A stretch of 64,000 bases of DNA from Pandoraea fibrosis (GTDB lineage Bacteria; Pseudomonadota; Gammaproteobacteria; Burkholderiales; Burkholderiaceae). Both the position numbers and the translations under genes were made by a program. How positions within the stretch are numbered: the first letter of the stretch is position 1; every line of letters begins with the position of its first letter. This document shows positions 5,541 to 33,112 of the stretch, in pieces. The notes beneath the pieces were generated by a model. The model saw only the letters and a list, made by a program, of their open reading frames with translations, ran no database searches and had not been told where the DNA came from. The stretch covers positions 1 through 64,000 of the forward strand of contig NZ_CP047385.1 of the NCBI RefSeq assembly GCF_000807775.2. The letters are read 5' to 3'.

Positions 5541-5545
5541 GTTGT
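5541..5545 (+). repeat. Left copy of the 5-bp target-site duplication
   Basis: GTTGT immediately precedes the left transposon end TGCAGGGA and is repeated directly after the right end at 33108-33112. Five-base duplications are what Tn7-family transposases leave. Confidence 0.93.
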
Positions 5546-5616
5546 TGCAGGGAAACCGAATTCGTGAGATTTGACGCGAATTCGTGAGACCAAGGTAACG
5601 AAGTTGATGAGACTAT
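5546..5616 (+). repeat. Left transposon end with putative TnsB-binding sites
   Basis: The terminal TGCAGGGA is followed by two near-identical 17-mers: CCGAATTCGTGAGATTT at 5556-5572 and GCGAATTCGTGAGACCA at 5576-5592, spaced 20 bp apart. A weaker third copy lies around 5599-5615. The same 17-mer occurs in inverted orientation at the right end. The arrangement matches the multiple transposase sites in Tn7 ends. That TnsB binds them is inference. Confidence 0.85.
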
Positions 5617-5632
5617 CTGGACTCGATCTGCC

Positions 5633-5722
5633 ACACATTTGCACCGTCTGAGCCAAAATGACGGTGTGTGTTGACCATAGCAAAAATTCGAAGAGGGCCT
5701 TGAAGTTCAAGGCCCTCTTTTT
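5633..5722 (+). terminator. Hairpin pair ending in a strong bidirectional terminator
   Basis: A first hairpin pairs CACCGTC with GACGGTG. A second has a 14-bp stem AAGAGGGCCTTGAA / TTCAAGGCCCTCTT at 5691-5719, followed by TTTTTG, with A residues on the opposite side. It should stop transcription from gyrB into the element and also transcription arriving from the minus-strand cargo. The two-hairpin unit could also be a small RNA, but I see no convincing promoter for that. Confidence 0.75.
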
Positions 5723-5945
5723 GTTTGATATTGGAGTGCAACCCTGCTGTGGCGCACCACAACTCGCGCGGTAGGACGCCAGATACGGCGCCACCGGCCG
5801 CTAATCGAGCCAACTGGTTGCGGCACGACCAAAAATGATGAGCGCGAAGTCTTTCGTCGCGCGGTGTTCTCCCGACCGTCTCTTACCGGCCAGCTGAGAA
5901 TCTGGATGACTACCGTGACAACGCCGCAGTCGATCCGAGGCACGA

Positions 5946-6158
5946 ATGTACATCATCTGTAAGGGGCGTGGGTATTCGAATCCGCTTGATTTGTTGGGTG
6001 CGGAGTTGAATGTGCTCGACGTCGGGCAATTCGTACGGGAGCAAAATCCGATTAAAGATCGGACCATTGTTGTTCGGCTCCTCCGATCAGCGGATCTCGA
6101 TGATTGGAGGCTGATGGGTGGCATTCCCGCGAACTATCCGGACACCACTTCCGGCTGA
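5946..6158 (+). CDS. Possible small hypothetical protein at the left end of the transposon
   Basis: This reading frame encodes 70 residues beginning MYIICKGRGY. GAGG lies 6 nt before the ATG, and the composition is protein-like (PLDLLGAELNVLDVGQFV). It converges on, and overlaps by 25 bp, the end of the minus-strand PLD-fold gene. No family is recognised and no other feature supports it. It could be a remnant or non-coding. The stretch from 5723 to 5945 shows nothing else that I can identify. Confidence 0.3.
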   Translation: MYIICKGRGYSNPLDLLGAELNVLDVGQFVREQNPIKDRTIVVRLLRSADLDDWRLMGGIPANYPDTTSG

Positions 6159-8683
6159 ACAGCCATCACGAAGTCTTGTTTGAAGGAACGGATGGATCCG
6201 AAGTCCCAGAAATCGACAAGTTCACCGTGGATCTTGGCAACCAACCGAGGATAATTACAGTCGCCCACGATGCAACAACCGCCTACTTCGATTTGCGGGG
6301 CGTCGGACAAGTCTCTGCTCCAGAACTGGCCAAATTCATTTGTGAGCCGGATCCATTTGTCTGCCCGCGCTGAGTCCAATGGATTGGATCGAAGCGTCGC
6401 TGCAGTGTAGCGTCTCAGATCGTCGCTGGCGGCGGCATCGGCGGCCACAGGTGGCGCGAGGGCGAGGAATATCGCCTTTGCGCGCAACTTCTCGTTCCGA
6501 CCGTTCGTGTCGAACGCGTCGACGGATGATTCCGGAACCTTCTCGCCGATAATCCATGCCAACCACAACAGCAACACACGGAGCTGAATCGCTTCCTCGG
6601 TTTCCGTGTTGGTATCGTCCGTCAGTGTGTCGATTAGCCGCGTTCTGGAATTGAACAAACACCACATGGATTCGTCCAGCAAGCGACGGCGCTCTGCCTC
6701 GGGAACGAGGAACTCGCGTGCCATTTGCCAACGCGGTAAGCGCTCAATACGCACCAGCTCCTTCACGAGCGAAAGCACGGCGATGAGTTGAACGAGCGCC
6801 CGCGCTTTGGTATCAGTTCTGTCGGCCTTAGTCAGCTTGACGAGCATCCGGTTGATGAGCCTCGTCACTTTTTTGCCAACCCGCCGCGCAATCTCGGCAT
6901 CGCGGAGAACCTGAGCGTCGACATTCTCACCGTCTTCGGTTTGCTCTGGATTGTCGTCCTGATTGACCTGTTCTTCCTCGGTTCGGCCTGCCCTGTCCAT
7001 GGGCATGGTCGGCTGCGTACGTAGCTCCTCGCCGAATTTTCGGGTCAGAAGGTCGATCAGCGTGATGATATCGGCGGATTCGACTAGACGGCGACGTCTC
7101 CTAGTCTGGCAAAGCTCGGTGACGCTGATTTCGAATGTGTCGGGTCTGCCGCCACTCGCTATGTGGGCTTGCGCCGATCCACGCCGTAATCGCACTTCGT
7201 TCTGTATTTCTTCTTCGGCGGCCGGTTCGAAGATCGCAGCTTCGACCGCCTTGAGCATTTCTGAAATGCTCTCACCGGACGGGTCCAATGCACCGAGCGC
7301 GTCGCGAACCTGGCGATGCGACGATCGCGTCTCCGCCGTCAGCAAATGTGGGTGAGCGATCATCGCCCTAGCCACGCGCTCGCTACCCAGGTACAAGTCG
7401 CACGCGCGCACCAGCTTCACGTCGATCGACACGGGAATACTCAGGACATCTCCCTTGCGAGTGACGGCGATATTTGCTTGAATTACGTCTAGATTGTCAC
7501 TTAACAGACAGGCGCTGCCGGGCTCGATGGCCCCGCCTGGCGTTGCGATTTGCAGTTCGTTAGGGTTTGCCGCTACACCTATCCAGAAGCGTTCGGCCGA
7601 TTCATCGATCGAACGTATTTGGGTGACGCTTCGTGTAGCGGTGGCCTCGAGCTCGCGTGCTGAGAGCGGTGGCAGCGCGAACATGCCGTACAACCCCAGC
7701 GCCTCCGCCGTCACCTGTGCGTCTGGACCAATGCGCATCATCACGGCTTCGACATTCGCGCGGCTTCGATCGCCCATCCAAGCGGGGCGGCTGGGATTGG
7801 CGCTTCCCGATATGAGCGCGTTCCCATTGTCATGCGTTTGCTCAATATATAGCGCCTTCGCATGTAGGTACTTGTCGCCGCAATTGCTGGGGTTTGTCCA
7901 GAGAAGCCTCGCGTCCACGAAACGCGCCTGCACCTTATGCATGCTTGGCAAATGCACGGTTTCCGGATCGATTGCGATGACCACGTCGGCCTGCGGCCAG
8001 CGTTCATGCAGATGCGCGACGAAAGCCAGGTCGCTATCGAAGAACGCACCGGTCACCCCGATCCTGCGAACTTCGCCTTTAACGCGCGCGTCAATTTGCT
8101 CAATAAGCGACGCTCCTCCTGGGCGCTGATGTAACGCGACGGTCGTCGTGGTTGCGCCTGGCGACGACAACGGCGCCACGCTTTTGGAAAAGGAAAGCAC
8201 CGCTTCGATCAGGGAGGGTGGCGCCTGCTCCCGTGCAAGTTCGATCCACTCCTGCGCCATCTGCCAAATCGAGTCCAGCAGAGCGGCACCTTCCTGATCC
8301 TTACGGTCCGTCACGTGCACCCAGTTCGTGATCTCCCGGTTGTAGCCGAAGCCTGATAGCGTCAGATTGTGGCTGCCGACGAGAATCGAGGCCTTCTTTT
8401 TGCCGGCCAGAATACAGACTTTGGGATGAAATGCTCCGCGCACGTTGACCGGCAAGAGCGAGTACGCTATGCCTGCAAGCCTCGGGCGGGTCGCTTCGGA
8501 TTGCCAGCTTAAGCTGCATTGTGCGTGATCCATCAAGACGATGTTCTGGTGGCAGCCCGCCGCCACCAAGCGACGCAGCAAGACCTCTTCATAGAAGGGC
8601 AGGCTCGCGTTGAACGTGGTGATTAGTGATGCGTCGAAGCCGCCTTGCTTGATGACATTCAAAAGGGAGATCGAATCAGGCAC
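6134..8683 (-). CDS. PLD-fold (HKD-type) protein, putative defence nuclease
   Basis: The 849-residue protein has two phospholipase-D-type half-sites in its first third. The first is HPK at residues 86-88 with GSHN at 103-106; the second is HAK at 274-276 with GSAN at 293-296. PLD-fold enzymes of this HxK...GSxN kind, lacking the downstream Asp, are often DNA nucleases (NgoFVII-like) rather than lipases. The remaining 550 residues are not recognised. They include an acidic, charged stretch around residues 560-590. The start codon lies inside the end of the upstream minus-strand gene (8-bp overlap), so the two are translationally coupled and probably work together. There is no signal peptide. 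Function in phage defence is inferred from the fold and the cargo position. Confidence 0.8.
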   Translation of the reverse strand: MPDSISLLNVIKQGGFDASLITTFNASLPFYEEVLLRRLVAAGCHQNIVLMDHAQCSLSWQSEATRPRLAGIAYSLLPVNVRGAFHPKVCILAGKKKASILVGSHNLTLSGFGYNREITNWVHVTDRKDQEGAALLDSIWQMAQEWIELAREQAPPSLIEAVLSFSKSVAPLSSPGATTTTVALHQRPGGASLIEQIDARVKGEVRRIGVTGAFFDSDLAFVAHLHERWPQADVVIAIDPETVHLPSMHKVQARFVDARLLWTNPSNCGDKYLHAKALYIEQTHDNGNALISGSANPSRPAWMGDRSRANVEAVMMRIGPDAQVTAEALGLYGMFALPPLSARELEATATRSVTQIRSIDESAERFWIGVAANPNELQIATPGGAIEPGSACLLSDNLDVIQANIAVTRKGDVLSIPVSIDVKLVRACDLYLGSERVARAMIAHPHLLTAETRSSHRQVRDALGALDPSGESISEMLKAVEAAIFEPAAEEEIQNEVRLRRGSAQAHIASGGRPDTFEISVTELCQTRRRRRLVESADIITLIDLLTRKFGEELRTQPTMPMDRAGRTEEEQVNQDDNPEQTEDGENVDAQVLRDAEIARRVGKKVTRLINRMLVKLTKADRTDTKARALVQLIAVLSLVKELVRIERLPRWQMAREFLVPEAERRRLLDESMWCLFNSRTRLIDTLTDDTNTETEEAIQLRVLLLWLAWIIGEKVPESSVDAFDTNGRNEKLRAKAIFLALAPPVAADAAASDDLRRYTAATLRSNPLDSARADKWIRLTNEFGQFWSRDLSDAPQIEVGGCCIVGDCNYPRLVAKIHGELVDFWDFGSIRSFKQDFVMAVQPEVVSG

Positions 8684-10322
8684 TGACGCCCTCCATCAAC
8701 TGCTTGCCTTCCGCGCTCAGCAACGTACGTTTATCGTCATTGCGCACGACCGCGCCTATGTCCATCAGGATCTGTAGTGCTTGACGAAAGCGCGGCGTGG
8801 TATTGGACGGTGCGGGTATGTTTCCATCTGTCAGTTGCAAACCGCGCTCAGACGGGCGGAAACGAAACGTCGCTGAATTCGTGCGATGAAGTTTGCGTAA
8901 CGACACGCGCAAATGCGTATTCATGCACCACGCAACGACGTCAGAGACCACGGCGCTTGGTGACATCTCTCGCCACTCAGCAGCTTTGCGCCGGAACGTA
9001 TCGAGATTGATGGGGTAATCCCGCAGTGCTTGTGGCGTGATCGCGAGCCCTTCATACGGCGCACGACTAAAATCGTCACGAATGACAAGGATCGCGAGCA
9101 CTCGCATGGCTGACGCAAACAACGCGGCTTCGCTTTCGCGCCCCCAAGACGAAACCATGTTTTGAGCCATCGGCATCTCGTGACCCTCAGCGGACCACTC
9201 CTCGAGCGCTGGCAATGTAGATTCGATGTTCGAGAGCCACGCTCCGAACGTCGCACAGTTGGTGTCGGCAACGAAGCCTTCCACGACGGCTGATTCCTCG
9301 AACGCCTTGACGAACGCCTCGACTGTGTCGCACACATAGCGCTCTCCCGCGATCTGCGGGGATAGCTTGTTTAAAACAAGCGAGAAGATCGTCTGAACCG
9401 CAACCGATAGCAGATCGTTGCGAACGTAAATGGCCCAGGTCGCACGCGTGGACGCCAGATCGGCTGGGATGCTCCAGCACGGCCGATCCGGCAGTGCGTT
9501 GCCATACATGACGGCGCGGAATACGTATTCGGAAAACTCGACGTCAGGCGTCAGATTATCTATGAGACGCTGGATTATCGCTAGCGAACGCTTGCGCTGC
9601 GTGCCTTCTTCGCCGTACTCTCGCAACCGGTCGAAGTAGATATCGGTGAGCCGTTCGCGCTCACTCGACTCGGGGCTTCGAAGGTGGCACGGACAGAACG
9701 CATGCAACTGTCTAATGTCGTCGTCAGCGATCTCACCTTCCTCGAGGATGCTCCAGAATAGGTCTGACGGCACCGATGCATTGAAAGCTTCGGCAATTGG
9801 CTTGCCGACTTCCTTTGTGAATTGAAACCACGGCTTTCTGCCGCCGTGCAGCATGCGTAAGTCGGTGAGCGTTCCTGCGTAATACTGCGAAAGCCCTCCC
9901 ATGCGATTCATGAAGTACCGATCTTCGGAGTCGTTGGCGGTGAACCTGACTAGCTTCAGTGTCTCTCCGTCGAGCGCTCGCTGCACTGCGCTGACCAGTT
10001 TCTGTCGACCTACCATCGCTGCGCCGTGGCGCTCGCTGATCTTGTCGGTGCATTGCGAGTGGTGTTCGGCAATCAGTGTGAACAGGCAATCGGCTCGCCG
10101 AAAACGTTCGACGAACGATGTCTCGTCCTCGTCATACGGAAAGCGTTTTGCGAGCGACCATATGAGCCACGGATAGAAGGAGTAATAACGGGCTCGGTCG
10201 GTGACGTTCGTTATTCCCGGCAATAGCTGACCGTAAATAAGAACGCACGGCGCTTGTGCGCCGAGGTGATCCAATCCGCCGATGGAGTGTGGGGGTTCGA
10301 CCCACGCAGTGTCGATTTTCAA
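8676..10322 (-). CDS. Unrecognised 548-residue partner of the PLD-fold protein
   Basis: This soluble 548-residue protein lacks any nucleotide-binding or nuclease motif that I can name. Its N-terminal part contains LLPGITNVTDRARYYSFYP, which resembles the start of DUF6361-type proteins from memory only. The C-terminal 60 residues (RQALQILMDIGAVVRNDD) look like a winged-helix segment. It overlaps the PLD-fold gene by 8 bp on the same strand, so the pair forms a two-gene unit in which this protein is made first. A plausible role is sensor or regulator for the nuclease, but that is inference. The 198 bp upstream (10323-10520) hold no further gene. Confidence 0.7.
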   Translation of the reverse strand: MKIDTAWVEPPHSIGGLDHLGAQAPCVLIYGQLLPGITNVTDRARYYSFYPWLIWSLAKRFPYDEDETSFVERFRRADCLFTLIAEHHSQCTDKISERHGAAMVGRQKLVSAVQRALDGETLKLVRFTANDSEDRYFMNRMGGLSQYYAGTLTDLRMLHGGRKPWFQFTKEVGKPIAEAFNASVPSDLFWSILEEGEIADDDIRQLHAFCPCHLRSPESSERERLTDIYFDRLREYGEEGTQRKRSLAIIQRLIDNLTPDVEFSEYVFRAVMYGNALPDRPCWSIPADLASTRATWAIYVRNDLLSVAVQTIFSLVLNKLSPQIAGERYVCDTVEAFVKAFEESAVVEGFVADTNCATFGAWLSNIESTLPALEEWSAEGHEMPMAQNMVSSWGRESEAALFASAMRVLAILVIRDDFSRAPYEGLAITPQALRDYPINLDTFRRKAAEWREMSPSAVVSDVVAWCMNTHLRVSLRKLHRTNSATFRFRPSERGLQLTDGNIPAPSNTTPRFRQALQILMDIGAVVRNDDKRTLLSAEGKQLMEGVSA

Positions 10323-10520
10323 TTCGCTCTCTCGGGATGGCGGTATTTAATTGGGGCGTGGAGTGGCACGCATGGCGAGGCGGTTCTGTCTGGGCAATTG
10401 TCGGTTCGTCGGATTCATGTTCGCTATCGGCAGACTTCTCCAATTAGTAGGTGCACGAAACAGGTTAGTCAGCCTCACAGTAACGATGCGTGATCCCGTA
10501 GTCGCGCCAACTGCGACATG

Positions 10521-12614
10521 TCAGTCGACGGAGGGCTCAAACTTGGCAAAGAGTTGTACCCATCGCTCAATCAAATCAATATCTATATCCGAGATCCCCT
10601 TGGACAGCGAGACGGTCTTCACACGCTTCGCAACCTCCACCTTCCAACCAAGCGTGAGCTCAATGCCTTCACGCTTGGCCCAAGCTTCCACCTGAGGCAC
10701 GATGGGCTTACCTTTCAAGGCGGCATCCGAGAAGGTTTGCTCCGCAGCACGAAAGACGCGGTCCACACCATCTACAAAGCGCTGGTGAGGAATCAAGTCC
10801 TCCAGCTCCGACCCTTGGAATTCGACGAATTCGTCTGTTGATATGACCTTCGCCTCCTCGCGGTTATAGAGGCTACTACGAAGCTCTGCGGCCAACTTAG
10901 TGCCCATGTGATCACCATCTAGCAAAACGACCGGCAGAGTCTCATCTCGACCAGTCAGGATGCTGGCAGTGATCCGAAGTGTTTTGGTTCCACCTGCGGG
11001 TGGAAACACCAATTCTCTACGAGGTTTAATCTTTCCTGCGCCAATGAGGAGAGCCTTGATCATCGTGAGATAGTGCTGATCAGACGCACCTTCCACGACA
11101 ATCGGCAGGCACCCTAGAAGCAAGCTCTCGGCGACATTCAGATTGAGTGCCGAATACACAGCATACGCAGCGCCAGCTTGCGCTGGGTCGGCCCCCGACT
11201 GACGTAGATTTGGCGAGGACTCAGTCGAGCCATCTGAAGCGACATAAACTTTTCGTACTCGATCTAAGCGGTCGGGATCAACGAGAAATGGCGAATGCGT
11301 CGTATAGATGATTTGATTGGTGTTAGCCAGCCCATCGAAGAAGGCGGATAGATCGCGCTGCGCGAGAGGATGAAGGGATAGGCCCGGCTCATCGAGCAGA
11401 AGGATGGCACCTTCGTGATCACCTTGGCTTTCAACCAAGAACACGAGATAGAAGCTTAGGAACCACTGCAATCCAGTACTGCGATTCTCAAGTTCCACTT
11501 CCTCCGGACGTCGATCGTCCGATACCCAGATGCGAAAATGATCGCCGTCTGCCTCGAAGCGGAAGCGGTAGTCGCCTTGTTTCCACCACGACTTGAACTC
11601 TTTGGTCAAAGTTGTGCCCGCAGACTGTAACAGGATGGATCGCTCTCGCTTGCGCTCGGCGATCTTCGCGATCTCGTCTTGGGTTGGCTGCCGGTTTTGA
11701 TTGCTGGGGTCTTTGAAATCACGACCGAGTTCAAGAATTTCCTTGGGCTGAAGCCGAACGAAGCTGAATAGCACGCGGAGGGTTCGAGCTTTCGCCGCTT
11801 CCTTGGCGCCCAGATCTTTTCTTTCCAGATTCTGGACTACATGGGGGAGATAAATCTCGGAGTCTAGATTTCCATAATTGGAGTAGTAGACAAATTTGGG
11901 GAGCGCGTTCAGGACAAGGTTCAGGACTCCGTCGATGTTCTCTGGAGCGGGTGACCGGATTTGGGACAAGCGGCCGGTTAAGACGTCGATGGTTTGCTGG
12001 ACGCGAGGGACGATTGTCGACGTTTTCGCTGGTTGTTCTGGCAATAACTTATTCAGTAACTCAATGGCGGTATCCAAGTCCTGTGCAGTCCAGTCTTGGC
12101 TAATGGAGTCGATCAGCTCGCGAACAGCGTCGACAAGTGTTAGCTTAAGAGACTCTTCGCTTTTGAGCGCCTCGGTCTGTTTAAGAGCTGTGGATAAGGA
12201 CGTCAACTCGTGCCTCATGTCCAGAGCAGTGACGGTCGTCTCGGGAACATACAGAGGAAACGAGATCTCGTATTGCCCGTCAAAGTACCTGTCGACACGC
12301 ACGATTTTAAGTTGTGAAGCATCCAGATTCGTGCTTTCGACCAATCTGGCGCTGAGAGACGTTGCATCAAAGTCGGCACTGATGAACCGAAACCGCCCCG
12401 GTTTGTCACGCACATCCGCGAACATGGTCTTCGGGTAGTCCGATGTCGGCTGAATCTCGCCTTCACGGGCGGGATTGAGCTTCCAAAGGGGAAGCAGCAA
12501 GTTCGTTTTTCCAGACTCGTTTACACCGATTAGTGCGGCAACGTCACCAGCTTCAATATCGCCGCTGTCCTTCACAGAGCGGAAATTCGTTACCCGGTAT
12601 TTGATCAACTTCAT
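10521..12614 (-). CDS. OLD-family ATP-dependent endonuclease
   Basis: The 697-residue protein joins an SMC/ABC-type ATPase to a C-terminal TOPRIM nuclease. The start MKLIKYRVTNFRSVKDSGDI leads into Walker A GVNESGKTNLL (residues 30-40). An ABC-signature-like segment ENRSTGLQWFLSFY lies near 376, Walker B LLLDEPGLSLHP near 403, and a His switch TTHSPF after it. TOPRIM motifs are VEGASDQHY near 506 and LLDGDHMG near 566. This is the architecture of P2 OLD and of GajA. No GajB-like helicase or RecB/RecN-type partner lies beside it, so it is best regarded as a stand-alone OLD nuclease. The position among defence cargo fits anti-phage use. Confidence 0.88.
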   Translation of the reverse strand: MKLIKYRVTNFRSVKDSGDIEAGDVAALIGVNESGKTNLLLPLWKLNPAREGEIQPTSDYPKTMFADVRDKPGRFRFISADFDATSLSARLVESTNLDASQLKIVRVDRYFDGQYEISFPLYVPETTVTALDMRHELTSLSTALKQTEALKSEESLKLTLVDAVRELIDSISQDWTAQDLDTAIELLNKLLPEQPAKTSTIVPRVQQTIDVLTGRLSQIRSPAPENIDGVLNLVLNALPKFVYYSNYGNLDSEIYLPHVVQNLERKDLGAKEAAKARTLRVLFSFVRLQPKEILELGRDFKDPSNQNRQPTQDEIAKIAERKRERSILLQSAGTTLTKEFKSWWKQGDYRFRFEADGDHFRIWVSDDRRPEEVELENRSTGLQWFLSFYLVFLVESQGDHEGAILLLDEPGLSLHPLAQRDLSAFFDGLANTNQIIYTTHSPFLVDPDRLDRVRKVYVASDGSTESSPNLRQSGADPAQAGAAYAVYSALNLNVAESLLLGCLPIVVEGASDQHYLTMIKALLIGAGKIKPRRELVFPPAGGTKTLRITASILTGRDETLPVVLLDGDHMGTKLAAELRSSLYNREEAKVISTDEFVEFQGSELEDLIPHQRFVDGVDRVFRAAEQTFSDAALKGKPIVPQVEAWAKREGIELTLGWKVEVAKRVKTVSLSKGISDIDIDLIERWVQLFAKFEPSVD

Positions 12615-12831
12615 CCTGCCCCCGTTGAGATTGCTTATTCGTTTGCGAAACTGAAGTCCGTGCGACCAATTGGTTACAGTAATCGGTGTGCCTAGCCGAT
12701 GATGCGGGCTACCCCATCCGGGGAGGAGCCCACCACAGCCGGCTGTAGGAATACGGCATCGTCGTGTCGATGAGCTGTTTCATGTCCGGAAACGGTCGAG
12801 CTCGATCTTCACGCCATACGGGCCAGAGACG

Positions 12832-13869
12832 TTACGTGCCCGGACTATTTTTTCGTTTTGTTTGTCTCCGGATTGGCGGAGACACCTCCTGATCATCTGG
12901 CATGACTGCCGGTCGCCTTGCCCCTACGGAGAGGGACTGCTTCAACCTCTCCAGCATCTTCTCGCCCAACTCCGGGTGCATACGTTTCACCATAGCGGCT
13001 TGTCCCCTAACTCTGCTCACTGGCATTGTGGACTCCTCACCGATGGAGATAGCCAGGTTTGTGCGATGGAGCAGAGAGGAGATGCTTCGACGTTGAGGTT
13101 TCGGCAACGAGACCTTCTTATTCACCACAAGGCCGTTGACGGACGTCCGTGCGTTGCTTCGTTGAACATCATGCTTGGGGCGTTTGACGGAATAGCCATG
13201 CCTGTTGACAAACGCGAACAGCATTCGATTCGTCTCCGTCACTTCGTCGCTATTTACTCGTTGTTGCTTCGATATTGTGATGTCATCAACCAAGCGAGAG
13301 TATCGCCATCCCTGCCTTTCCAATCGAGCGACTAGATCATGCTCGTCTGAAAAAAACACAAGATTTGCGAGATAACTACTGGTCCTCGCGCCTTGAGGAA
13401 GGAACCCGTCTTTGGTTGTGAGCATGGTGAGCAACTTCGCAACCGCAGGAGAAAAACGAAAAAATTTGGACCAAATGTCCATTACTGCCGAATCGGAGGT
13501 GCTTGGAAAAAAGTCAGCGATATCCAGCGTCACGAGGATTGTGGGGTCAACGTGGATTTCGGCATTGCGAACATAGTCGCGAGGATGGAGCCGGTCACGA
13601 ATTCCGCCCTGAAGGAATAGGGGAAACATCGTCCGGTGGAAGATCCTGCTGTTAATGTGTCCGTGAACTTCTTTCAGTTGCTTCTGAGCATCCCATGTGT
13701 ACCGCGTCGAGCCATCCTTTTTAGGTACGGGCACTTTTCTGTACATGCGAGACGCGTTACGGGCGAGTTGAAGCAATTGAGGCTCGGTCAAAAGCAATGT
13801 CCGAGCAAGCGCGCCCACACTCTTTATAGGCGCGTTTCTATAAAAGGGCTTGTTCTGAAGGCTCTTCAT
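12832..13869 (-). CDS. ret: Retron-type reverse transcriptase
   Basis: The 345-residue enzyme has the compact layout of bacterial retron RTs. It shows the retron-specific NAxxH motif (NAEIH, residues 102-106), motif A LDIADFFPS with Asp116, PQG at 158-160, catalytic LVDD with Asp195 and Asp196, and a VTG-like element VNGLVV at 244-249 in the thumb. There is no group II intron maturase domain. Its start codon lies inside the 3' end of the upstream HTH gene (32-bp overlap), showing translational coupling. A candidate msr-msd RNA lies upstream on the same strand at 14640-14872. The 217 bp between this gene and the OLD gene hold no gene. I call it a retron RT with good confidence; the retron type is less sure. 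Confidence 0.9.
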   Translation of the reverse strand: MKSLQNKPFYRNAPIKSVGALARTLLLTEPQLLQLARNASRMYRKVPVPKKDGSTRYTWDAQKQLKEVHGHINSRIFHRTMFPLFLQGGIRDRLHPRDYVRNAEIHVDPTILVTLDIADFFPSTSDSAVMDIWSKFFRFSPAVAKLLTMLTTKDGFLPQGARTSSYLANLVFFSDEHDLVARLERQGWRYSRLVDDITISKQQRVNSDEVTETNRMLFAFVNRHGYSVKRPKHDVQRSNARTSVNGLVVNKKVSLPKPQRRSISSLLHRTNLAISIGEESTMPVSRVRGQAAMVKRMHPELGEKMLERLKQSLSVGARRPAVMPDDQEVSPPIRRQTKRKNSPGT

Positions 13870-14143
13870 TCAACAACTGGAGTGCAGTGAAGGAAAGCTT
13901 CTCTTGAAGGTCAAGTGGCAGCCCAGCGAGTTCTGTTTGATCGGCTGCGAGGAAAAACAGAATACCTGATGGTACAGCCAACGCTTCAGCGATTTTCTGA
14001 ATAACCGATAACGTTGGGTCCTTACGCTTGTTTTGTTCTAGGAGCGAAAGGTACGACACAGAAATCTCGGCCTTCTCCGCAAGCTGCGCTTGGTTCCACC
14101 CACGCTGCTTGCGACAAAGCGTGATTGCGCGGCCCAAATTCAT
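13838..14143 (-). CDS. XRE-type helix-turn-helix protein of the retron unit
   Basis: The 101 residues form a Cro/C1-type HTH domain (NLGRAITLCRKQRGWNQAQL, then SYLSLLEQNKRKDPTLSVIQ) followed by a short tail ending SEQALL. Its 3' end contains the start of the reverse transcriptase gene. Retrons with a small HTH partner are known (type VI in published classifications). There the HTH protein may be an effector or a regulator. The tight overlap argues that it is a retron component and not an unrelated repressor. Confidence 0.8.
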   Translation of the reverse strand: MNLGRAITLCRKQRGWNQAQLAEKAEISVSYLSLLEQNKRKDPTLSVIQKIAEALAVPSGILFFLAADQTELAGLPLDLQEKLSFTALQLLNEEPSEQALL

Positions 14144-14175
14144 TTTCTAACCCTTGGAAAAAATGGTTCGCTGCG

Positions 14176-14433
14176 TCAACTCGGGTTGAAGAATCGATGA
14201 ATGAGAGCTGCCAAGTTACTCACGATACCTGCGGCTTGAACGATAAGTTCCAACGCGCGCATGCGCAGGTGACGCGGCACTTCAACTTCATCTTCCCTAT
14301 CTTGCAGGCAACGTTCCAATTCCTCAACGAGTGCCTTCAACTCTTCATTGACGCTGGTGCTTAACTCTTGGTGCTTGCTCTGACGAAGCGCGTTGAGCGC
14401 ATCGATGCAGTACTTCAAATGGTCTGATTTCAT
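14176..14433 (-). CDS. Small helical protein of the retron unit
   Basis: This 85-residue, charged, helical protein starts MKSDHLKYCIDALNAL and continues with Glu-rich stretches. I chose this ATG because GGAG stands 7 nt before it; a longer frame upstream to 14574 lacks such a site. It is 32 bp upstream of the HTH gene on the same strand. It lies between the candidate msr-msd RNA and the HTH-RT pair, so it is probably co-transcribed. No family is recognised. It could be the retron effector, an accessory protein or an antitoxin. Confidence 0.6.
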   Translation of the reverse strand: MKSDHLKYCIDALNALRQSKHQELSTSVNEELKALVEELERCLQDREDEVEVPRHLRMRALELIVQAAGIVSNLAALIHRFFNPS

Positions 14434-14639
14434 GGAGATTCTCCGTTGCAGGGCACATGCCCAGCTTCCACAAGCAGGTAACCGAACGGAGAGAGTTAGA
14501 GCACCACGAACCACATTCCAATTAGCTTCCACAACACAGCTTTTGAGATACCGAACATTGCCTACAGCTTCCAAGAATCCACCCGGTATCGGAGAGGACA
14601 GGCGCGGAAGCTAAGTTCCGACAGCATGCACTGAGCTCC

Positions 14640-14872
14640 GGAGCCAAGTATTGACGCCCGAATCGCAGACAGCGGCTCGGCCTCGTTTCGTGCGATACGG
14701 CGCGATACGTCTCGGTTCGACAATGAGACGGCGCGTTAGTCCGAAGGCCTCACGAAAATTGCCCGCATAGCGGGTACCCCGTCCAAAGGACGAAGCGGCA
14801 CTACCTCGCTACCACTTGAGGAATTACGAAATCGACCTGTTAAAGAGCACCGGAGCAGTTCTACTCCTCCCA
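14640..14872 (-). ncRNA. Candidate retron msr-msd RNA
   Basis: Read on the minus strand, the region begins about 7 nt after a sigma70-like promoter. It contains TAGCGAG (14805-14811), which recalls the branch-G region of retron Ec86. Two short hairpins follow with 3-nt loops: CGTCC-TTT-GGACG (14780-14792) and CCCGC-TAT-GCGGG (14762-14774). A long imperfect hairpin has outer stem TTTCGTG / CACGAAA (14751-14757 with 14686-14692) and inner stems CGCG and GTCTC / GAGAC, as expected of an msd. A weak a1/a2 pairing is possible between 14813-14819 and 14644-14650 (7 bp, two G-U); another runs between 14850-14859 and about 14630-14643. The exact ends are uncertain. Position upstream of the RT on the same strand supports the call. 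Confidence 0.55.
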
Positions 14873-14878
14873 ACGCAA

Positions 14879-23328: not shown

Positions 23329-23330
23329 TC

Positions 23331-24001: not shown

Positions 24002-24030
24002 GCCGCCTATCGCTAAATAGGCGGCGTTCT
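24002..24030. terminator. Convergent-gene hairpin terminator
   Basis: A 9-bp stem GCCGCCTAT / ATAGGCGGC with a 6-nt loop lies between the plus-strand exonuclease gene and the end of the minus-strand phosphoesterase gene. The rest of the 233-bp spacer shows no gene. Confidence 0.55.
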
Positions 24031-24034
24031 CGTC

Positions 24035-25810: not shown

Positions 25811-26053
25811 AATTACCTCGTTTGGTTGACAGCGGATTCGGCAGATCGTATCAAAGACGGGCGGGTTTGATACTGGCTAACAGCGATCGATGGCTCCTCG
25901 CAGGTAGTGAGCCACGCCATACGTCGAGGGAACCTTCTTAAAGATAAGTTGTGAGCCAGTTGGGAGGATCTGGAGCATGATGCCTCTTCGTTTGCGAGCA
26001 CAGCTGATCCAATTAGGATAGCGTAATCAAAAGATCGAACGTCGTTGGGGAAG

Positions 26054-29000
26054 ATGGAAAAGAAAGCGAAAGCCGTTACCGAAATCGACACAGTCCGCGC
26101 GTCACGTGCCGGTCACACGTTCCACGAGCGATGGACTGCGAGGCGCGCCTTGCAGTTGGTCTTTCCGAATGACGATCTGTTTGCGATCGCCGTGGAGGGG
26201 ATTTCATCAACCGAGACCGTAGACCCGGGGGTGAAGGCCGAGGAGGTCGCCGACCTTGTTCTTTACTATGGCAACGGGGACAATTTTCGGTCCTGCGATC
26301 GGCTCGAAACGATTCAATTCAAGTACAAAATTCGCGAAGAAGCTGTTACAGCTGCTTATCTTAAAAAGACAGTCGAGAAATTTTCTAGCTCGATCTTGGG
26401 GTACGAGGGTAACTCCGCGCCTGATGAGGTCGACAATAAGATCTCATTCATTTTCGTCACGAACGCGGAATTCACTGAAAGTCTTTGGGAAGCGATCAAG
26501 TCACTTGTAGAGGGAACAACGCCTTCCGATCGCGAGGCGGCCAATCAGGCCCGAAATCTCAAAAAGTGGTGTAAAGATAGCGGCTTGTCGGACTCAATGC
26601 GCCTCTTTTCGCGGATAGTATTTCAGGCTGGCGAGAAGCGCGTTGCCGGGCTGGATAATGCGTTGAAGCGGACGCTTACTGACTGGTCCGCTGGCGCTGA
26701 TTCTGAGGCTAGAGTCCGGCTCCATGAGCTCCAAGACCTTGTCTTGAAGAAGGCAAGCCCGAGCGGCCAAGGCAAGAATCTGATTCGGCGAGAAGATGTC
26801 CTGGATGCATTTGATTGTGAGCCGGAGGATCTTTTCCCCGCGGATACACGGTTCATCGACGTCGGTGCGGTCGTCGAGCGGGCTGAACTCTCAGTCGTTT
26901 CGGGTTTGATCAAGACTTCAGAGGTACCCGTTGTTGTCCATGCCGATGGTGGGGTGGGTAAGACGGTGCTCATCCAAAGCCTTGCCGAAAAAATGGCGAG
27001 CGAGTTTGAGGTCGTTGTTTTTGATTGCTTTGGTGGTGGTTCATACCGCTCTGAGAATCACTCCCGTCATCTTCCCAGAATAGGGTTGGTTCAGATCGTC
27101 AACGAACTGGCATCGCGAACGTTATGTGACCCGATGCTACCGGGCGGCGATGATAATCGAAAAATCATGAAGGCGGCACGCAGGCGACTGGAACAAGCTG
27201 CGCTGGCAATTCGAACTCAATCAAAAAAGCAGGCGCTGCTTATTATTATCGATGCGGCCGACAATGCTCAGCTTGAGGCCGACTATCGTCATGAAGCTGC
27301 ATTTCCTAGGCTTCTTCTGTCTACTGTCGACGAAGATCCGATCGAGGGCGTAAAGCTGTTGTTCACAGCGCGCCCCCACCGAAAAGGGGCAGTTATCGGT
27401 TCCGCTAGGGTGAATGAGCTGGCGCTTGGACCATTCACCGATTCAGAGGCGTGCGAATTCCTTAAAGAACGTAAGCCCAGTGCTTCTTACGCGGAGATCA
27501 CCACAGCGTTAGCGCGCTCCGGGCGCAATGCACGCGTCCTCGACTACCTTGTTCAAACGTGGGACACAAATGTTATCGGCACAACTTCGGATCTCCCGAT
27601 CTCTGTTCGGGAGATTATCGCCCAGCGTTGCACCAAGATTGTCTCGGATCTTCATATTGCAGGGTGGCCTGATTCAGAAATAACCGAGTTTTTTGTTGCA
27701 CTGTCACTCCTTCCACCGCCGATCCCGCTGGAAGAGCTAGCGAACGCGCTTGGGTGGTCTGCTGCGCAGGTCAAGTCTGCGGCATCGGATTTGGCCCCAA
27801 TGCTTGAGATCACGTCGCACGGTGCGATTTTCCGAGACGAGCCAACCGAAACATACGTTCGGGAGACTTACTCTGATCGGTCATCAGCTCAAAGAAGCAT
27901 TGCTGACCGCCTTCTGTCATCGCAGGCAACGTCAACCTATGCTGCCGAGGCACTGCCGCACTTTCTAGTCGTGATCAAAGATAGCGACAGGGCATTCGCA
28001 CTCGCTGATTCAAATAGTTTTCCAGCGTCAATACAGTCGGATTTCGGTCGCCGCCGACTAGCGCTTGCGCGTCTTAGAGCAGCTTTTCGGTTAGCGGTGG
28101 CGGAGGATGACTTCGATAGGGCACTTGAACTCAGTATGCGACTGTCTCAGTCTGCTGCTGCAAACATGCGAGGAGATGAGTTTATTCGAAGCTCGCCCGC
28201 TCTTGCGATCGTACTCGGGGACGCCGACTCCTATCGCCGTCTTGCATCGGATCGCTCCGGGTGGCGTGGTGCAAGAAGTGCGCGGCTGACGGTCGCGCAT
28301 CAATTTGCGGGCGATGCCGAAGAGGCGCAGATACAGTGCGAAAGTACCATTCGCTGGATTAACTGGAATGCCTCACAGCGGCGAGACGGATTCCGGCGGG
28401 ACCAATCTGGTCCGGAGATGGACGACTATGTAGCGGTGCTCTTCCAGCAATCGGTTCAAGGGCGGTTTGAAACAGTCAATCGCAATCTGGCGAACCGGAA
28501 TGAACGCTTTTCGCTGTCCGCTTGTCATGAGCTCCTGAGGTTGCTGGAATTGTTTGACCAAGCAAACGAGACAACCGTGCTGAAGGACTTGACCTCGTTC
28601 GCCGTCAGCAATAACTGCAACTCTCGATCGCTGAGACTATGGATGCTCGCGCGTTGTCGATACGTCGATGGAAAGCACGCGAAAGTACTTGCGCAGAAGA
28701 TCGCGAAGTTCCCTCCCGATGAAGACCGGACCAACGAGGGCTTCTCCAATGAGAACGAACAAGAGAGTGCAAATCCCACCGATTTAGCGGCATTGGCTGC
28801 GCTCTTCTACGGTTCGCGAACCTCCGCTGCCGCGATTATCGGTAATGCGTCTCGTGCACGTCCGTCCGCTTACGACTATGGCGAGCGTTATGGTCTGTCC
28901 AGAGCTTGGCCTCCAATCCTCCGAGCCTGCATTCGTGCTTGGTCTGCTAAGAGACCGGTCGCCTATCACGATCTCCTGCCCGACGGCGTTAAGGTCACCA

Positions 29001-32000
29001 AGCTGGCAAAGTCCATCACGACTCCAGCCGAGCTGGCGACGTTTTTGCAGAAACTTCGCAAAACCTCATCTACCGGAAATGCCAAGAAGAGAGGAAAAAA
29101 GCAGTTCGAGGCGAGATTCGACGAGCGAGAACGCAGGGACATCAGCCACGGTATCGACGTGGCGCGAGCATTAACCAAGCCAATCGAAGATGCAGTCCTC
29201 ACTGGACGTTTCGTTTCGGTTTCCGACTTCTTGGACGTCTGGGCAAAACTTTTGCGTCGAGATGTGCACTGGCGAGCAGATAGTGCGGCGGATTCGTTAG
29301 TCCGCACTTTAGGGCTGGGTTGTATGAGTGTTCTGCTGAACCATGCACGCGACGTATCGGTCGCTCAAGCCGAGGTACTTATTGGCCTGATCTCTACAGG
29401 GCACTTCTTCGTCCCGCAGAAGATTGACGTATTGGCGCAGCTGGCCCGGCGACCTGCGCTCCATGAGCTCGCGGGAAAGTTCGCACGTCACGTCGCGGAG
29501 CAGATTCGCGGAGATGACGACGTCGGAGGACGTGGCGCCTCCTACATAAAGTTAGCAGAATCCCTAGTCCACATGAGTATCAATGAAGCCCGAGAGTACT
29601 ATCGGGAGGGGCTGGCCGAGTTAGACCAGATAGGTGGAGAAAGCTACGACCAAATCTACGCACTGCTTCATTTCTCATGTGCCCAGCAAGGTGGTTTTTT
29701 AAAGCCCGCGTTGGCGCAACGGCTAATGAACCTTTGCCAAACGTTGGTGCAATACGATGCCAGGAAGTTTGGATGGACGTTGTTCGCGAGAGCCGCCGCT
29801 ACCTCCATTGGCCTTCCAGCAATAGCCAAGTTGGTGCGCTGGCATGATCAAGACGTCGCAGACCTGTCTTATGGATTGCCGCAGCTTGTATGTTTTCTTG
29901 CCAAGAATGGCAAGCTTGATCCACGCCGCGCTGCATTTGTTCTCACGATTTGTGAGGAACACGGATGGTGGGATTGGCGCACTGCCGACGGGGTTGCCGA
30001 CTTGCTCGGGCTGACCGATGCCGGGAACCAACGGCGGATTTTTCTGGCGATCTTCGAGAAATGGCGTGGTGAGCACCCGTCCGGTGGTTGGCCCGCGCTT
30101 TGGGAGGGGCTCCTAGAAGCGAGCAATAAGTATCCAAGTGTAACCACCACCGAAGTGCGTGAAGAGATTGAACGACTCTGTGCTGTTGCTCGGCGCAATC
30201 AGGAAGAGTCTCATAGTCGAAGTAACTCGTCGTCGGACTTCCTGGCAAGCAAATCCTCAAAGCGAAGTGAGGCCGAAGTTGAGAGCGTCATCGCCGCATT
30301 GGCTTCTGCCTGCGATCCCACTTCGGAAAGTTCGATTGATGAAAACCTAAGAACCATAGCCTCCGACGACAAGCTGAGCTACTCTGCTCGACAACAATTT
30401 ATCAACAAGTTGCGTGTCACTTGCCCGTACTCAAAGCGGCTGCCCTTTTTATCCGCGATCTGTAGTGCGTCCGAGCTGAGTTTCGCTCAGTCATTAGAAA
30501 TCCTCTCGGGTTGCTTCACTGCTTGGATCGATTCATCCAAGCATCTGGTCTCAGAGGCAAAGGTGTTGGTTGTGCGTCTGTTCGAGTGCAAGAGTCCGGA
30601 ACTGTTCGAAGGACAGTTCTCCGACGTGGCGCGCGATATCCGTCGACTGTCGGATCTCTGCAACGATCAGAGGTTTGTGCTGCAGCTCGTTCTCCGCAAG
30701 GTTGCCGCCGACGAGGTCGACCTCGATGGAAATGAGTGGCTCCAACTAGCTACTGCATTATGCGAAGTAGCTGATGCTAAAACGGGACTTTGTGCATTAG
30801 AGTCACTACTTTCCGGCCCGGCGGCTCGCATTGCCGATGAGATCGGAGAGGGCCCATTTCGGCAGCAGCAGGAAATCTCGACGAGCGACTCAGAGTTTAT
30901 CGTGGACGTCATATGGCATCTTCTTGGCGACGATGACGCCTACGTTCGTTGGACCGTTGCTAGGGGCTTGAAGACGCTGGTTGAGTTAGGACTCAACGAA
31001 GACCTATCTCTGTTAGTTGATCGCTTTGACCAAACCGAATCCCCGGCCTTGGCTTCGACCGACAGGAAACTGTCGTTTCAGAATTCCCAGCAATGGTTGC
31101 TGATGGGATTGGCGCGAGTTGCTTTGCACCATGGAGAGACCATGGGCACACTTCGAAACAAGCTACGCGCTCTCGCACGGAGACCTGATCTGCACGTCAT
31201 AAATAAAGTTCACCTTGCGAGGTGCTTGGGCCACATTGGAAGTGAAGAGCCTCACGATGAGGAGTTGGGGACTCTGCTTAGTGAAATCAACCAACCTGCG
31301 TATGGCGTTGCCATCAGCGACGGCTACCCAGGTGAGGTGAAGCGGACATCGGATTTTTACTTCGGCTATGAGTTCACGAAAAACGAGATCGGCGACCTCG
31401 TTCGCTTATTCAACGTTGCCCAAGGAACCGTCGAAGACGCCATCGCGGCAGAGATAAAGCGCAAATGGCCGAGGACTACTTCAATGAACGATTTCCCAGG
31501 CAGCAAGCGCTACTGGCGAGACCGAGGAGACCGATATGAATCCTATCGAGAGCATATTCAGAGACATGCACTGCTTAGCGTTGCTACCAATCTGCTAAGG
31601 ACGATGCCGACGGTTGTTCGAAGCTACGAAGACCAGGATAACTCACCTTGGCTCGAGTGGCGCGATCGCTTTGATGTCACATTCGATGACGGGTCATGGC
31701 TGTCCGATCATAAGGATGCCGTTCCTCAACAGGCGAAGGAGTATCTGCTAGGTAAGAGGGGCACCAAACAGGAAACACTGCAGGATCAGGACGTGATACT
31801 ACGCAAATTAGGTTTTTGCGGGGCCAACGCTGATGCACTGTTTCCGTTGTATGGGACTTGGTCGTCTCCTGACGGAGTAAGCGTACGGTTCACATCTGCG
31901 CTGACAGTGCGAAAGGATGTCGCAGGTCGCTGCAGGGCCTTTGCGAAGCGAAAAGAACATGATTTTTGGTTGCCGGAGTTCTGGGACGATGGGTATTACG

Positions 32001-32482
32001 ATCGCCGCTATCGAAAAGACAATCCTTTTGCTCCATTTGTATGGGCACCTGAAGCACACAGGCTTGGTATAGATGAGGGTGATGAGATGGCCGCCAAGGG
32101 GCCGGCAAGACGACCGCGTCTCGGTATTGACATCACGAAGAGCCTGTCGCTGTTGAATGAGCCGGGAAGTCCTGAATGGCGCGCAAGAGATGGACGCCTA
32201 GCTTTAAGGAGCCAAGTGTGGGGCAATTGGAAGCCTGACTCCAGCGATCACCGTTCCCGCTATCAAGATGATGGTGAAATGTTATGGGCCTCTCCAGGAT
32301 GGCTGGATGCAACGTTGTCCGACCTCGACCGCAATCTCGTTTTTACGGTGAAGCTATGCAAGTACGGATCGTCGCGTGACTATGACCCTTCAGAAGGCGT
32401 CAAATCCGTTTTCCTGGGGTTAAGAGCTGATGACGGCACGCTGGAGTTTTGGCCGGCAACCAATGCCTCAAAGCAAGACTAG
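26054..32482 (+). CDS. Giant STAND NTPase with nuclease-like N-terminus (Avs-like)
   Basis: The protein has about 2142 residues. The N-terminal 220 residues resemble DUF4297/Cap4-type nucleases: HTFHERWTARRAL, then VEGIS, an acidic ADLVLYY and IQFKYK give an E...D...QxK pattern. A NACHT/STAND-type NTPase follows, with Walker A GGVGKTVL near residue 302, Walker B LLIIIDAADNA near 395 and FTARPHRK near 435. The remaining 1500 residues are helical and TPR/HEAT-like, as expected for the ligand-sensing part of Avs antiviral receptors, which recognise phage terminase or portal proteins. I chose the ATG at 26054; TTG at 26045 is possible. It is intact. Assignment to a particular Avs type would need a search. 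Confidence 0.8.
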   Translation: MEKKAKAVTEIDTVRASRAGHTFHERWTARRALQLVFPNDDLFAIAVEGISSTETVDPGVKAEEVADLVLYYGNGDNFRSCDRLETIQFKYKIREEAVTAAYLKKTVEKFSSSILGYEGNSAPDEVDNKISFIFVTNAEFTESLWEAIKSLVEGTTPSDREAANQARNLKKWCKDSGLSDSMRLFSRIVFQAGEKRVAGLDNALKRTLTDWSAGADSEARVRLHELQDLVLKKASPSGQGKNLIRREDVLDAFDCEPEDLFPADTRFIDVGAVVERAELSVVSGLIKTSEVPVVVHADGGVGKTVLIQSLAEKMASEFEVVVFDCFGGGSYRSENHSRHLPRIGLVQIVNELASRTLCDPMLPGGDDNRKIMKAARRRLEQAALAIRTQSKKQALLIIIDAADNAQLEADYRHEAAFPRLLLSTVDEDPIEGVKLLFTARPHRKGAVIGSARVNELALGPFTDSEACEFLKERKPSASYAEITTALARSGRNARVLDYLVQTWDTNVIGTTSDLPISVREIIAQRCTKIVSDLHIAGWPDSEITEFFVALSLLPPPIPLEELANALGWSAAQVKSAASDLAPMLEITSHGAIFRDEPTETYVRETYSDRSSAQRSIADRLLSSQATSTYAAEALPHFLVVIKDSDRAFALADSNSFPASIQSDFGRRRLALARLRAAFRLAVAEDDFDRALELSMRLSQSAAANMRGDEFIRSSPALAIVLGDADSYRRLASDRSGWRGARSARLTVAHQFAGDAEEAQIQCESTIRWINWNASQRRDGFRRDQSGPEMDDYVAVLFQQSVQGRFETVNRNLANRNERFSLSACHELLRLLELFDQANETTVLKDLTSFAVSNNCNSRSLRLWMLARCRYVDGKHAKVLAQKIAKFPPDEDRTNEGFSNENEQESANPTDLAALAALFYGSRTSAAAIIGNASRARPSAYDYGERYGLSRAWPPILRACIRAWSAKRPVAYHDLLPDGVKVTKLAKSITTPAELATFLQKLRKTSSTGNAKKRGKKQFEARFDERERRDISHGIDVARALTKPIEDAVLTGRFVSVSDFLDVWAKLLRRDVHWRADSAADSLVRTLGLGCMSVLLNHARDVSVAQAEVLIGLISTGHFFVPQKIDVLAQLARRPALHELAGKFARHVAEQIRGDDDVGGRGASYIKLAESLVHMSINEAREYYREGLAELDQIGGESYDQIYALLHFSCAQQGGFLKPALAQRLMNLCQTLVQYDARKFGWTLFARAAATSIGLPAIAKLVRWHDQDVADLSYGLPQLVCFLAKNGKLDPRRAAFVLTICEEHGWWDWRTADGVADLLGLTDAGNQRRIFLAIFEKWRGEHPSGGWPALWEGLLEASNKYPSVTTTEVREEIERLCAVARRNQEESHSRSNSSSDFLASKSSKRSEAEVESVIAALASACDPTSESSIDENLRTIASDDKLSYSARQQFINKLRVTCPYSKRLPFLSAICSASELSFAQSLEILSGCFTAWIDSSKHLVSEAKVLVVRLFECKSPELFEGQFSDVARDIRRLSDLCNDQRFVLQLVLRKVAADEVDLDGNEWLQLATALCEVADAKTGLCALESLLSGPAARIADEIGEGPFRQQQEISTSDSEFIVDVIWHLLGDDDAYVRWTVARGLKTLVELGLNEDLSLLVDRFDQTESPALASTDRKLSFQNSQQWLLMGLARVALHHGETMGTLRNKLRALARRPDLHVINKVHLARCLGHIGSEEPHDEELGTLLSEINQPAYGVAISDGYPGEVKRTSDFYFGYEFTKNEIGDLVRLFNVAQGTVEDAIAAEIKRKWPRTTSMNDFPGSKRYWRDRGDRYESYREHIQRHALLSVATNLLRTMPTVVRSYEDQDNSPWLEWRDRFDVTFDDGSWLSDHKDAVPQQAKEYLLGKRGTKQETLQDQDVILRKLGFCGANADALFPLYGTWSSPDGVSVRFTSALTVRKDVAGRCRAFAKRKEHDFWLPEFWDDGYYDRRYRKDNPFAPFVWAPEAHRLGIDEGDEMAAKGPARRPRLGIDITKSLSLLNEPGSPEWRARDGRLALRSQVWGNWKPDSSDHRSRYQDDGEMLWASPGWLDATLSDLDRNLVFTVKLCKYGSSRDYDPSEGVKSVFLGLRADDGTLEFWPATNASKQD

Positions 32483-32559
32483 GCGTGTTGGGCAATTCAT
32501 TGCTGCAAGCGAATTGTCTAAATTTTACGAAAGCGGCGACCACGAAGCTAGCGACAACT

Positions 32560-32928
32560 ATGGAAAACTCGAAGAACCTCGTAGTTACCATCGACCACTT
32601 TCGACGAGCACTCGGTGACGTGAGCGACTTGCACTACGATGATGTGATGGAGATTCGTTACATGGATGTTGCGACCCGGCTATACCTGACCGCGGGGGTA
32701 GCGATAAGGTTTGCGTCAAAGCACGCCCGCTGCGGGTGGCAGGCTTGGACACTTCAGTCGCTCGTCGCTGACGGGGTGATCCAGGACGAGGTCGGGCGAG
32801 ATTTTACTCAGGCCGACCTGCGCCTTATGTCGACCCGTAGTGGGTCGATCAGGATCCGATACGCGAACAGCGCATTGCACGGGGATGCGTATCTTAATGG
32901 CGATCACTTGTTCGGGTGGTCAGATTGA
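32560..32928 (+). CDS. Small protein downstream of the STAND gene
   Basis: The frame encodes 122 residues from MENSKNLVVT; a TTG at 32449 would extend it into the end of the STAND gene. It is followed closely by the right transposon end. The composition is normal and no family is recognised. Its position directly after the STAND gene suggests co-transcription and perhaps an accessory role. Confidence 0.45.
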   Translation: MENSKNLVVTIDHFRRALGDVSDLHYDDVMEIRYMDVATRLYLTAGVAIRFASKHARCGWQAWTLQSLVADGVIQDEVGRDFTQADLRLMSTRSGSIRIRYANSALHGDAYLNGDHLFGWSD

Positions 32929-32972
32929 TCGATCGGGCCGCGAACTTCGGCGGGCCACGGGGGCTGGCGGAG

Positions 32973-33107
32973 CAATCTAACGATTTCGCGACGCAAATCA
33001 GGTAAATCTCACTAATTCGGTCAAGCCGGCGAAAATATGTGACAGAATTCGTGAGTAACTACCTGTTTTATAAGGGGGCGCAGTCTAGCGAATTTGCGAT
33101 CCCTGCA
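32973..33107 (-). repeat. Right transposon end with putative TnsB-binding sites
   Basis: Read inwards from 33107 the end begins TGCAGGGA. It then shows three 17-mers like those of the left end in inverted orientation: GCAAATTCGCTAGACTG (33081-33097), CCGAATTAGTGAGATTT (33004-33020) and GCGAAATCGTTAGATTG (32973-32989). The middle copy differs from a left-end copy at one base in 17. An extra GAATTCGTGAG in the opposite orientation lies at 33045-33055. Confidence 0.85.
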
Positions 33108-33112
33108 GTTGT
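33108..33112 (+). repeat. Right copy of the 5-bp target-site duplication
   Basis: GTTGT follows the right terminus and is identical to 5541-5545. Confidence 0.93.

Follow-up and report, generated by a model that had tools for sequence, protein, structure and literature searches.

Tn7 carries TnsABC together with a TnsD/TniQ target selector, duplicates 5 bp of its target, and inserts in one orientation just past the conserved gene glmS. Other Tn7-like elements have chromosomal sites of their own, such as comM for Tn6022 and yhiN for Tn6230 (PMC10293859, PMC10121019, PMC11406308), and in the accessible text of the reviews only a handful of attachment sites are described as being read by a protein. 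The closest described parallel to the element presented here is Tn7017, which the available parts of the sources describe as a type I-F3 CRISPR-associated transposon (CAST) with a TniQ-directed site at parE (PMC11406308), in a branch that is mostly without Cascade (PMC10293859); the original prediction for our locus had mentioned parE, the paralogue of gyrB, as a Tn7-like site, and Tn7017 bears this out. The element analyzed here lies in a stretch of 64,000 nucleotides of Pandoraea fibrosis (contig NZ_CP047385.1, positions 1 to 64,000), hereafter called the window, and is a Tn7-like transposon located directly behind gyrB (Table 1).

We estimate a probability of about 0.9 that this intact-looking Tn7-like element is directed to the 3' end of gyrB by TniQ2-type target selection. 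Its anatomy was read directly in the window, where the predicted complete transposon, with 8-bp terminal repeats, GTTGT duplications, and TnsA, TnsB, TnsC and TniQ genes, was indeed found, its left end being separated from the gyrB stop codon by 10 bp. A 5-bp duplication such as the GTTGT on both sides is typical of Tn7-like transposons, and the core consists of the TnsA endonuclease, the DDE transposase TnsB and the AAA ATPase TnsC, accompanied by two selector genes that scored above the cut-off for PF06527, all five genes being on the same strand. Putative TnsB boxes were located at both ends, another Tn7-like feature; on the left, the box AATTCGTGAGA occurs in two exact copies and one with three mismatches, an array that is kept in relatives of the element, and on the right it occurs in four copies with one or two mismatches each, one of them inverted (the search tolerated up to three mismatches, and two opposite-strand matches with three mismatches, one per end, were set aside). 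The G+C content is 54.8% within the element and 61.2% in the remaining window. By every defining feature tested, the element is a Tn7-like transposon; it is of the TnsABC type and looks intact.

Like Tn7, the element combines TnsABC with a TniQ selector, a 5-bp duplication and one-orientation insertion past a conserved gene, but it differs from Tn7 in its site (gyrB and not glmS), in its ends (TGCAGGGA) and in having two TniQ genes. The TnsE family was not found among the 18 proteins scanned against Pfam (a set that also took in gyrB and a LysR gene, neither of them part of the element), so that neither hallmark of Tn7 sensu stricto, the glmS site and TnsE, was seen. Compared by the available description only, Tn7017 would be similar in having two TniQ-family genes and protein-directed homing beside a gene for a type II topoisomerase subunit, but the window element is at gyrB and not parE; moreover, no Cas family was found in the Pfam-scanned proteins and no CRISPR-like repeat array in the element, which sets it apart from the type I-F3 CASTs. 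Tn6022, as far as described, inserts inside comM with TnsF, unlike the window element, and Tn6230 uses a site other than gyrB. A gyrB attachment site for Tn7-like elements is not named in the accessible text of the searchable literature (PMC10293859, PMC8649781, PMC11406308, PMC12452197, PMC10702557, PMC3384475, PMC10121019, PMC4615327); most subscription papers lie outside such a search, and an earlier notice is possible.

That gyrB is a chance neighbor of the element was rejected, since the linkage recurs in other genomes. In a sample of the family (299 genomes, one per species, drawn evenly from a larger set), relatives of TniQ2 were found in 34 genomes at a cut-off of E 1e-10, the window's own counted, and gyrB was then placed in the other 33. 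Where gyrB was on the same contig, the TniQ2 match lay 4-41 kb downstream of it on the same strand in 21 of 24 genomes (window included); the ten with match and gyrB on different contigs were left uncalled (G143, G246, G136, G226, G264, G267, G285, G049, G106, G158). TnsB relatives were retrieved from 22 of the 299 genomes at E 1e-60, and all seven genomes with at least 37% identity have the match at gyrB, which argues that the site follows the Tns/TniQ2 machinery and not the ends alone. The tns and TniQ matches are oriented as gyrB in 23/23 linked elements shown. Genome comparison thus revealed the site- and orientation-specific insertion of a Tn7-like element, and the proposal that the 3' end of gyrB serves as attachment site is supported by independent elements behind gyrB elsewhere. 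A class-level search (369 genomes) gave five matches besides the window, of which one (G405, from another family of the same order) is gyrB-linked at 18.5 kb, one (G522) is far off on the gyrB contig, and three are on different contigs. In plasmid searches, TniQ2 matched 18 records and TnsB at least 4,983, all below 60% identity. The best plasmid match of TniQ2 (30% identical) comes from a Pseudomonas putida plasmid (L257, NZ_MN310372.1), which is conjugative, carries tnsABC and a single TniQ, and may be regarded as a possible vehicle.

The 3' flank of gyrB was read in 90 genomes, a non-random set of 32 with a TniQ2 match, 28 further ones of the same genus and 30 with a TniQ match. Directly behind the stop codon several ends recur, which bear labels of our own, namely A (TGCAGGGA), A' (TGTAGGAA-type), B (TGTAGATAG-type), C (TGTAGCGGGA), D (TGTAGGTT), E (TGTAGGATC and similar) and F (CGTAGGGCGCCAGAG), and each type from A to F is followed by tns genes and a TniQ in one genome or more. 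Kinship is seen between A and A', whose TnsB proteins are about 50% identical, and between B and C, whose TniQs form one clade; on this count, the gyrB 3' end is used by no fewer than five Tn7-like lineages (A/A', B/C, D, E, F). The distance from the stop codon to the end is typically 2-4 bp in D/E, 6-8 bp in B/C/F, and 8-14 bp in A/A'. In the genus sample, motif rules recognized an end of type A-F at most 75 bp behind the gyrB stop in 18 of 30 genomes (G082 and G133 included; 2 of 32 genomes gave no locus), and when ten genus genomes with such an end were fetched further, three (G000, G082, G133) had tns genes in the stretch. A right end with an exact 5-bp duplication was found with at most two mismatches in 10 in G000, G133, G265, G124, G202 and G049, and with three mismatches in G032 and G269. 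At the former stringency, 6 of 33 TGYAG positions right after gyrB (31 genomes) matched, versus 14 of 1,230 decoy positions (1.1%), which were not required to read TGYAG; with three mismatches allowed, the decoys gave 67 matches overall (5%). An inverted end with a 5-bp duplication is therefore found behind gyrB more often than by chance. Two further recurrent sequence types right behind gyrB, labelled G and H (in G143, G120 and in G101, G059), are candidate ends only.

Elements at this site are also stacked. The right flank of the window element, GTTGTAGCCGTAGGGCGCCAGAG, is the left end of the F family, which lies directly behind gyrB in four genomes of the same genus (G192, G222, G210, G117) and is accompanied by tns genes in G257 and G297. 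Five stacked pairs were found, with A followed by F in the window, A by B in G272, E by A in G133, B by A in G269, and D by a degraded A-like end in G049; in each of the five the two ends differ in type, as would be compatible with target immunity, although the number is small. In the window, the duplication preserves the complete resident F end, TGTAGCC, beyond the element, and the flanks, when joined, match G222 at 80/96 and G117 at 81/99 positions; likewise, the joined flanks of G124 match G261 at 56/71, the terminator hairpin included. The pre-insertion site of the window element was not empty, as a resident F end was present. The empty junction that had been foreseen is approximated in the same genus (gyrB-TTGGTTGTGTAGCC in G192), but that sequence is itself the end of an older element. 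Because several lineages share the site, each with its typical offset, the elements stack, the newest lying next to gyrB. We lean towards the view that the gyrB 3' end is a common dock on which five or more Tn7-like lineages of the Burkholderiaceae and one neighboring family have converged, in which each selector would read the same gene end with its own offset, the newcomer would land at or within the first bases of the resident, the duplication largely rebuilding the resident end, and the left end of the newcomer would often restore a terminator, resulting in ordered cargo stacks beside the replication origin. Behind some left ends, stretches that resemble a tRNA 3' half with a terminator after it were noticed by eye (window 33280-33350; L090 about 1350-1410; L065 about 5330); Rfam gave nothing above the gathering score on these stretches, with a tRNA at 20 bits only in L090 and none in the other two.

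Ends away from gyrB offered a view of what may be recognized. An A/A' left-end profile, built from nine ends, matched 49 of the 299 genomes, 15 of them at gyrB (G000, G133, G154, G269, G242, G272, G002, G265, G136, G162, G100, G279, G262, G031, G252; the end of G031 is 170 bp behind gyrB, and the match in G252 is partial); in the remaining genomes the end is elsewhere or gyrB was not placed. For 19 ends that are not beside gyrB, the upstream 120 bp were compared with the 90 gyrB ends. One of these, an ectopic A'-type end in G214 (G214:C10, about 165085; L333 9812-9886), lies beside a 38-bp gyrB-like segment that matches at 34/38 positions (best row G155) and is exactly in register (d=12), while registers d=8-11, 13 and 14 reach at most 16/38; the 36 bp adjoining the insertion do not match gyrB (9/36). 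This resembles a natural experiment and hints that recognition may reside in gyrB codons -20 to -8. Among the other 18 ends, two scores were equal to or slightly above the highest obtained from 30 shuffles, and the others were below it; these ends may represent remnants or sites chosen by other selectors. Several A'-like left ends away from gyrB were also seen in G255 (C1 2018873-2056473), G208 (C43 990-30384) and G295 (C5, C7), those of G255 and G208 in tandem and in one orientation; no TnsB or TniQ relatives were found in the fetched parts of these loci, which are a possible second stacking site.

Several observations weigh against homing to gyrB through TniQ2. In 3 of the 24 genomes (G024, G050, G138), the TniQ2 match is on the gyrB contig but far off, and G002 and G141 carry an additional match away from gyrB. 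Below 37% TnsB identity, 6 of 15 genomes have the match at gyrB (G123, G133, G043, G257, G199, G297), the match being far away on the same contig in G050 and on another contig in G136, G277, G049, G252, G211, G118 and G143 (gyrB was not placed in G292); because the genomes of G049, G252 and G211 are nearly complete, their TnsB genes are truly elsewhere. Of the 31 genomes tested, only 8 yielded a right end with an exact duplication, two of them at three mismatches; the closest relative, G272, shows 4/5 duplicated bases, and in G242 and G136 no such right end was found in the fetched stretch. Some right ends may lie further out, as the fetched stretches measured 12-60 kb. In 11 genomes of the same genus, the gene beyond the right flank of the window element did not turn up behind gyrB, nor did any of the three genes past this flank within 17-20 kb, and the evidence for the pre-insertion site therefore rests on about 100 bp of the older end. 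Fetched stretches contained the 19 A/A'-like ends not beside gyrB, and a search for TnsABC/TniQ relatives at E 1e-5 found none in 20 fetched stretches, gyrB-linked ones included. Finally, the in-register case is one of 19, its 38-bp segment was delimited after the match was seen, and the G214 genome gave no TnsB relative at E 1e-60. In the original prediction, the same termini at unrelated sites had been named as one observation that would count against it, and the A/A'-like ends off gyrB are partly of this kind, but the relatives with the more similar TnsB are all at gyrB. Insertion into a permissive region close to the replication origin, without specific recognition of gyrB, would accommodate such ends elsewhere as well as the variation within the genus of the sequence behind gyrB; nonetheless, the narrow offset of each family, the constant orientation, and the one ectopic insertion in register with a gyrB-like segment are at odds with it, and we consider it very improbable.

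As to the molecule that selects gyrB, a tree of TniQ proteins (51 rows, 7 fragments or near-copies being omitted; long-branch warnings were issued) showed the gyrB label to be clustered, with 7 changes versus a shuffled mean of 17.4, rows labelled 'other' being those in which linkage is not shown, some merely because of another contig. The branch of TniQ2 also holds the TniQs of G272, G242, G002 and G265 (support 100/98) and, with less certainty (85/82), those of G123, G133, G043 and G143 (the last uncalled), while the selectors of B/C constitute a clade of 12 rows, 11 gyrB-linked and one uncalled. From these groupings we infer that TniQ2 is most likely the gyrB selector and would bind gyrB. 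The presence of both tniQ1 and tniQ2 in the operon leaves some room for recognition by TniQ1, or by both jointly, TniQ2 alone being insufficient; indeed, TniQ1 is 47% identical to its partner in G272, both elements being at gyrB, and is grouped with it (100/100) and, with less certainty (93/93), with the TniQs of G002 and G265, which are short. Such a role of TniQ1 is nonetheless unlikely, considering that the gyrB-linked element of G133 shows a single TniQ, which is TniQ2-like (the second TniQ match of this genome is 560 kb off), and that in the A' elements the TniQ1 counterpart is much shorter (297-307 codons open), whereas TniQ2 is similar over its full length. A guide RNA could also direct the element to gyrB, as in CASTs, which provide the solved structures nearest in sequence to the window TnsB, including that of Tn6677 (I-F3a). 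No support was obtained for this mode of homing, which we regard as extremely improbable: besides the lack of Cas families among the scanned proteins, the longest gyrB word inside the element is 13 bp versus 11-16 bp in 40 controls, and no exact 20-mers recur at a spacing of 50-80 bp.

In the preferred reading, homing through TniQ2, this TnsD-like protein, with a TniQ core and a helix-turn-helix (HTH) C-terminus, would bind the conserved coding stretch of gyrB at about codons -20 to -8 and recruit TnsC and TnsAB; if the element is active, TnsAB would then insert it in a single orientation 10 bp past the stop codon (8-14 bp across the end family) with a 5-bp duplication, while TniQ1 would probably serve a second pathway. 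The gyrB gene remains intact, and the window left end supplies it with a terminator-like hairpin. In the 90 genomes, the gyrB end is AT-rich, with conserved synonymous codons, whether or not an element was recognized; the last six codons have G or C at 40% of third positions versus 78.5% over the last 300 codons, and the lowest six-codon block starting at codon -8 or farther upstream has 58.9%. Since the same letters are found where no element end was recognized (e.g., G261, G221), this is probably a feature of the host. Insertion separates gyrB from its own terminator. By a hairpin rule, a terminator in the gyrB sense was found within 250 bp behind the stop in 55 of the 90 genomes (B 20/21, C 3/6, F 6/9, A 2/5, D 1/5, E 2/3, others 21/41, the last group still containing some known elements, G002 and G078 for instance, which the typing rules do not assign), compared with 2/90, 0/90, 3/89 and 3/89 in control stretches and 21/90 when the opposite strand was read. 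The window hairpin (5691-5719) resembles the one behind gyrB in G204 (85% over 54 bp) and looks as if it had been captured. Overall, the case that the left end restores a gyrB terminator is strong for B and mixed for A, C and D.

The cargo of the element includes genes that, by domain and model matches, are of the phage-defense type. The retron-type reverse transcriptase adjoins the AAA/OLD-like ATPase, and Rfam gave no match in the retron region 13800-14900 (E up to 1). The NACHT protein is 2,145 amino acids long, and its PADLOC Avs3a match is best across residues 14-782.

Table 1 Features of the window and of the Tn7-like element behind gyrB
Feature	Coordinates	Strand	Remarks
gyrB, attachment-site gene	3058..5535	+	Pfam GyrB domains
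Proposed recognition segment in gyrB	5474..5511	+	About codons -20 to -8; suggested by the G214 ectopic match
Left target-site duplication	5541..5545		GTTGT
Tn7-like transposon	5546..33107	+	27,562 bp; ends, duplication and genes read in the window
Left terminal repeat	5546..5553	+	TGCAGGGA; exact 8-bp match with right end
TnsB-box-like repeats (three), left end	5559..5612	+	5559-5569, 5579-5589, 5602-5612 (third with 3 mismatches)
Intrinsic-terminator-like hairpin, gyrB sense	5691..5725	+	In left end
Cargo: PLD-domain protein and partner	6134..10322	-	Weak similarity to PADLOC ZacB/ZacA
Cargo: AAA ATPase (AAA_15)	10521..12614	-	AriA/OLD-like
Cargo: retron-type reverse transcriptase	12832..13869	-	Best PADLOC models RT_V, RT_VI
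HTH regulator	15259..15717	+	Adjoins tns operon
tnsA	15835..16716	+	PF08722
tnsB	16697..18775	+	rve and Mu-transpos_C; start chosen by us, listed open reading frame opens at 16565
tnsC	18772..19785	+	TniB PF05621; also AAA_22
tniQ1, putative second target selector	19754..21259	+	PF06527
tniQ2, proposed gyrB selector	21201..22643	+	PF06527 TniQ core and C-terminal HTH (HTH_17)
Cargo: metallophosphoesterase	24035..25810	-	
Cargo: Avs3a-like NACHT protein	26045..32482	+	PADLOC Avs3a 569 bits; NACHT domain
TnsB-box-like repeats (four), right end	32976..33094	-	33084-33094, 33046-33056 (inverted), 33007-33017, 32976-32986
Right terminal repeat	33100..33107	-	TCCCTGCA; 8 bp exact
Right target-site duplication	33108..33112		GTTGT
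Left end of older family-F Tn7-like element	33110..33195	+	Behind the window element; inner limit approximate

The gyrB gene is essential and near-universal, and it is a paralogue of the known parE site; with a gyrB-directed element, the way in which TniQ/TnsD proteins switch from one target to another can therefore be tested directly, and the ectopic insertion in G214 hints at the DNA that the selector reads. A protein-guided inserter that homes to gyrB could serve as a tool for safe-site insertion. In the genomes themselves, the stacks show how defense cargo can accumulate at one locus, with the order of arrival still readable.

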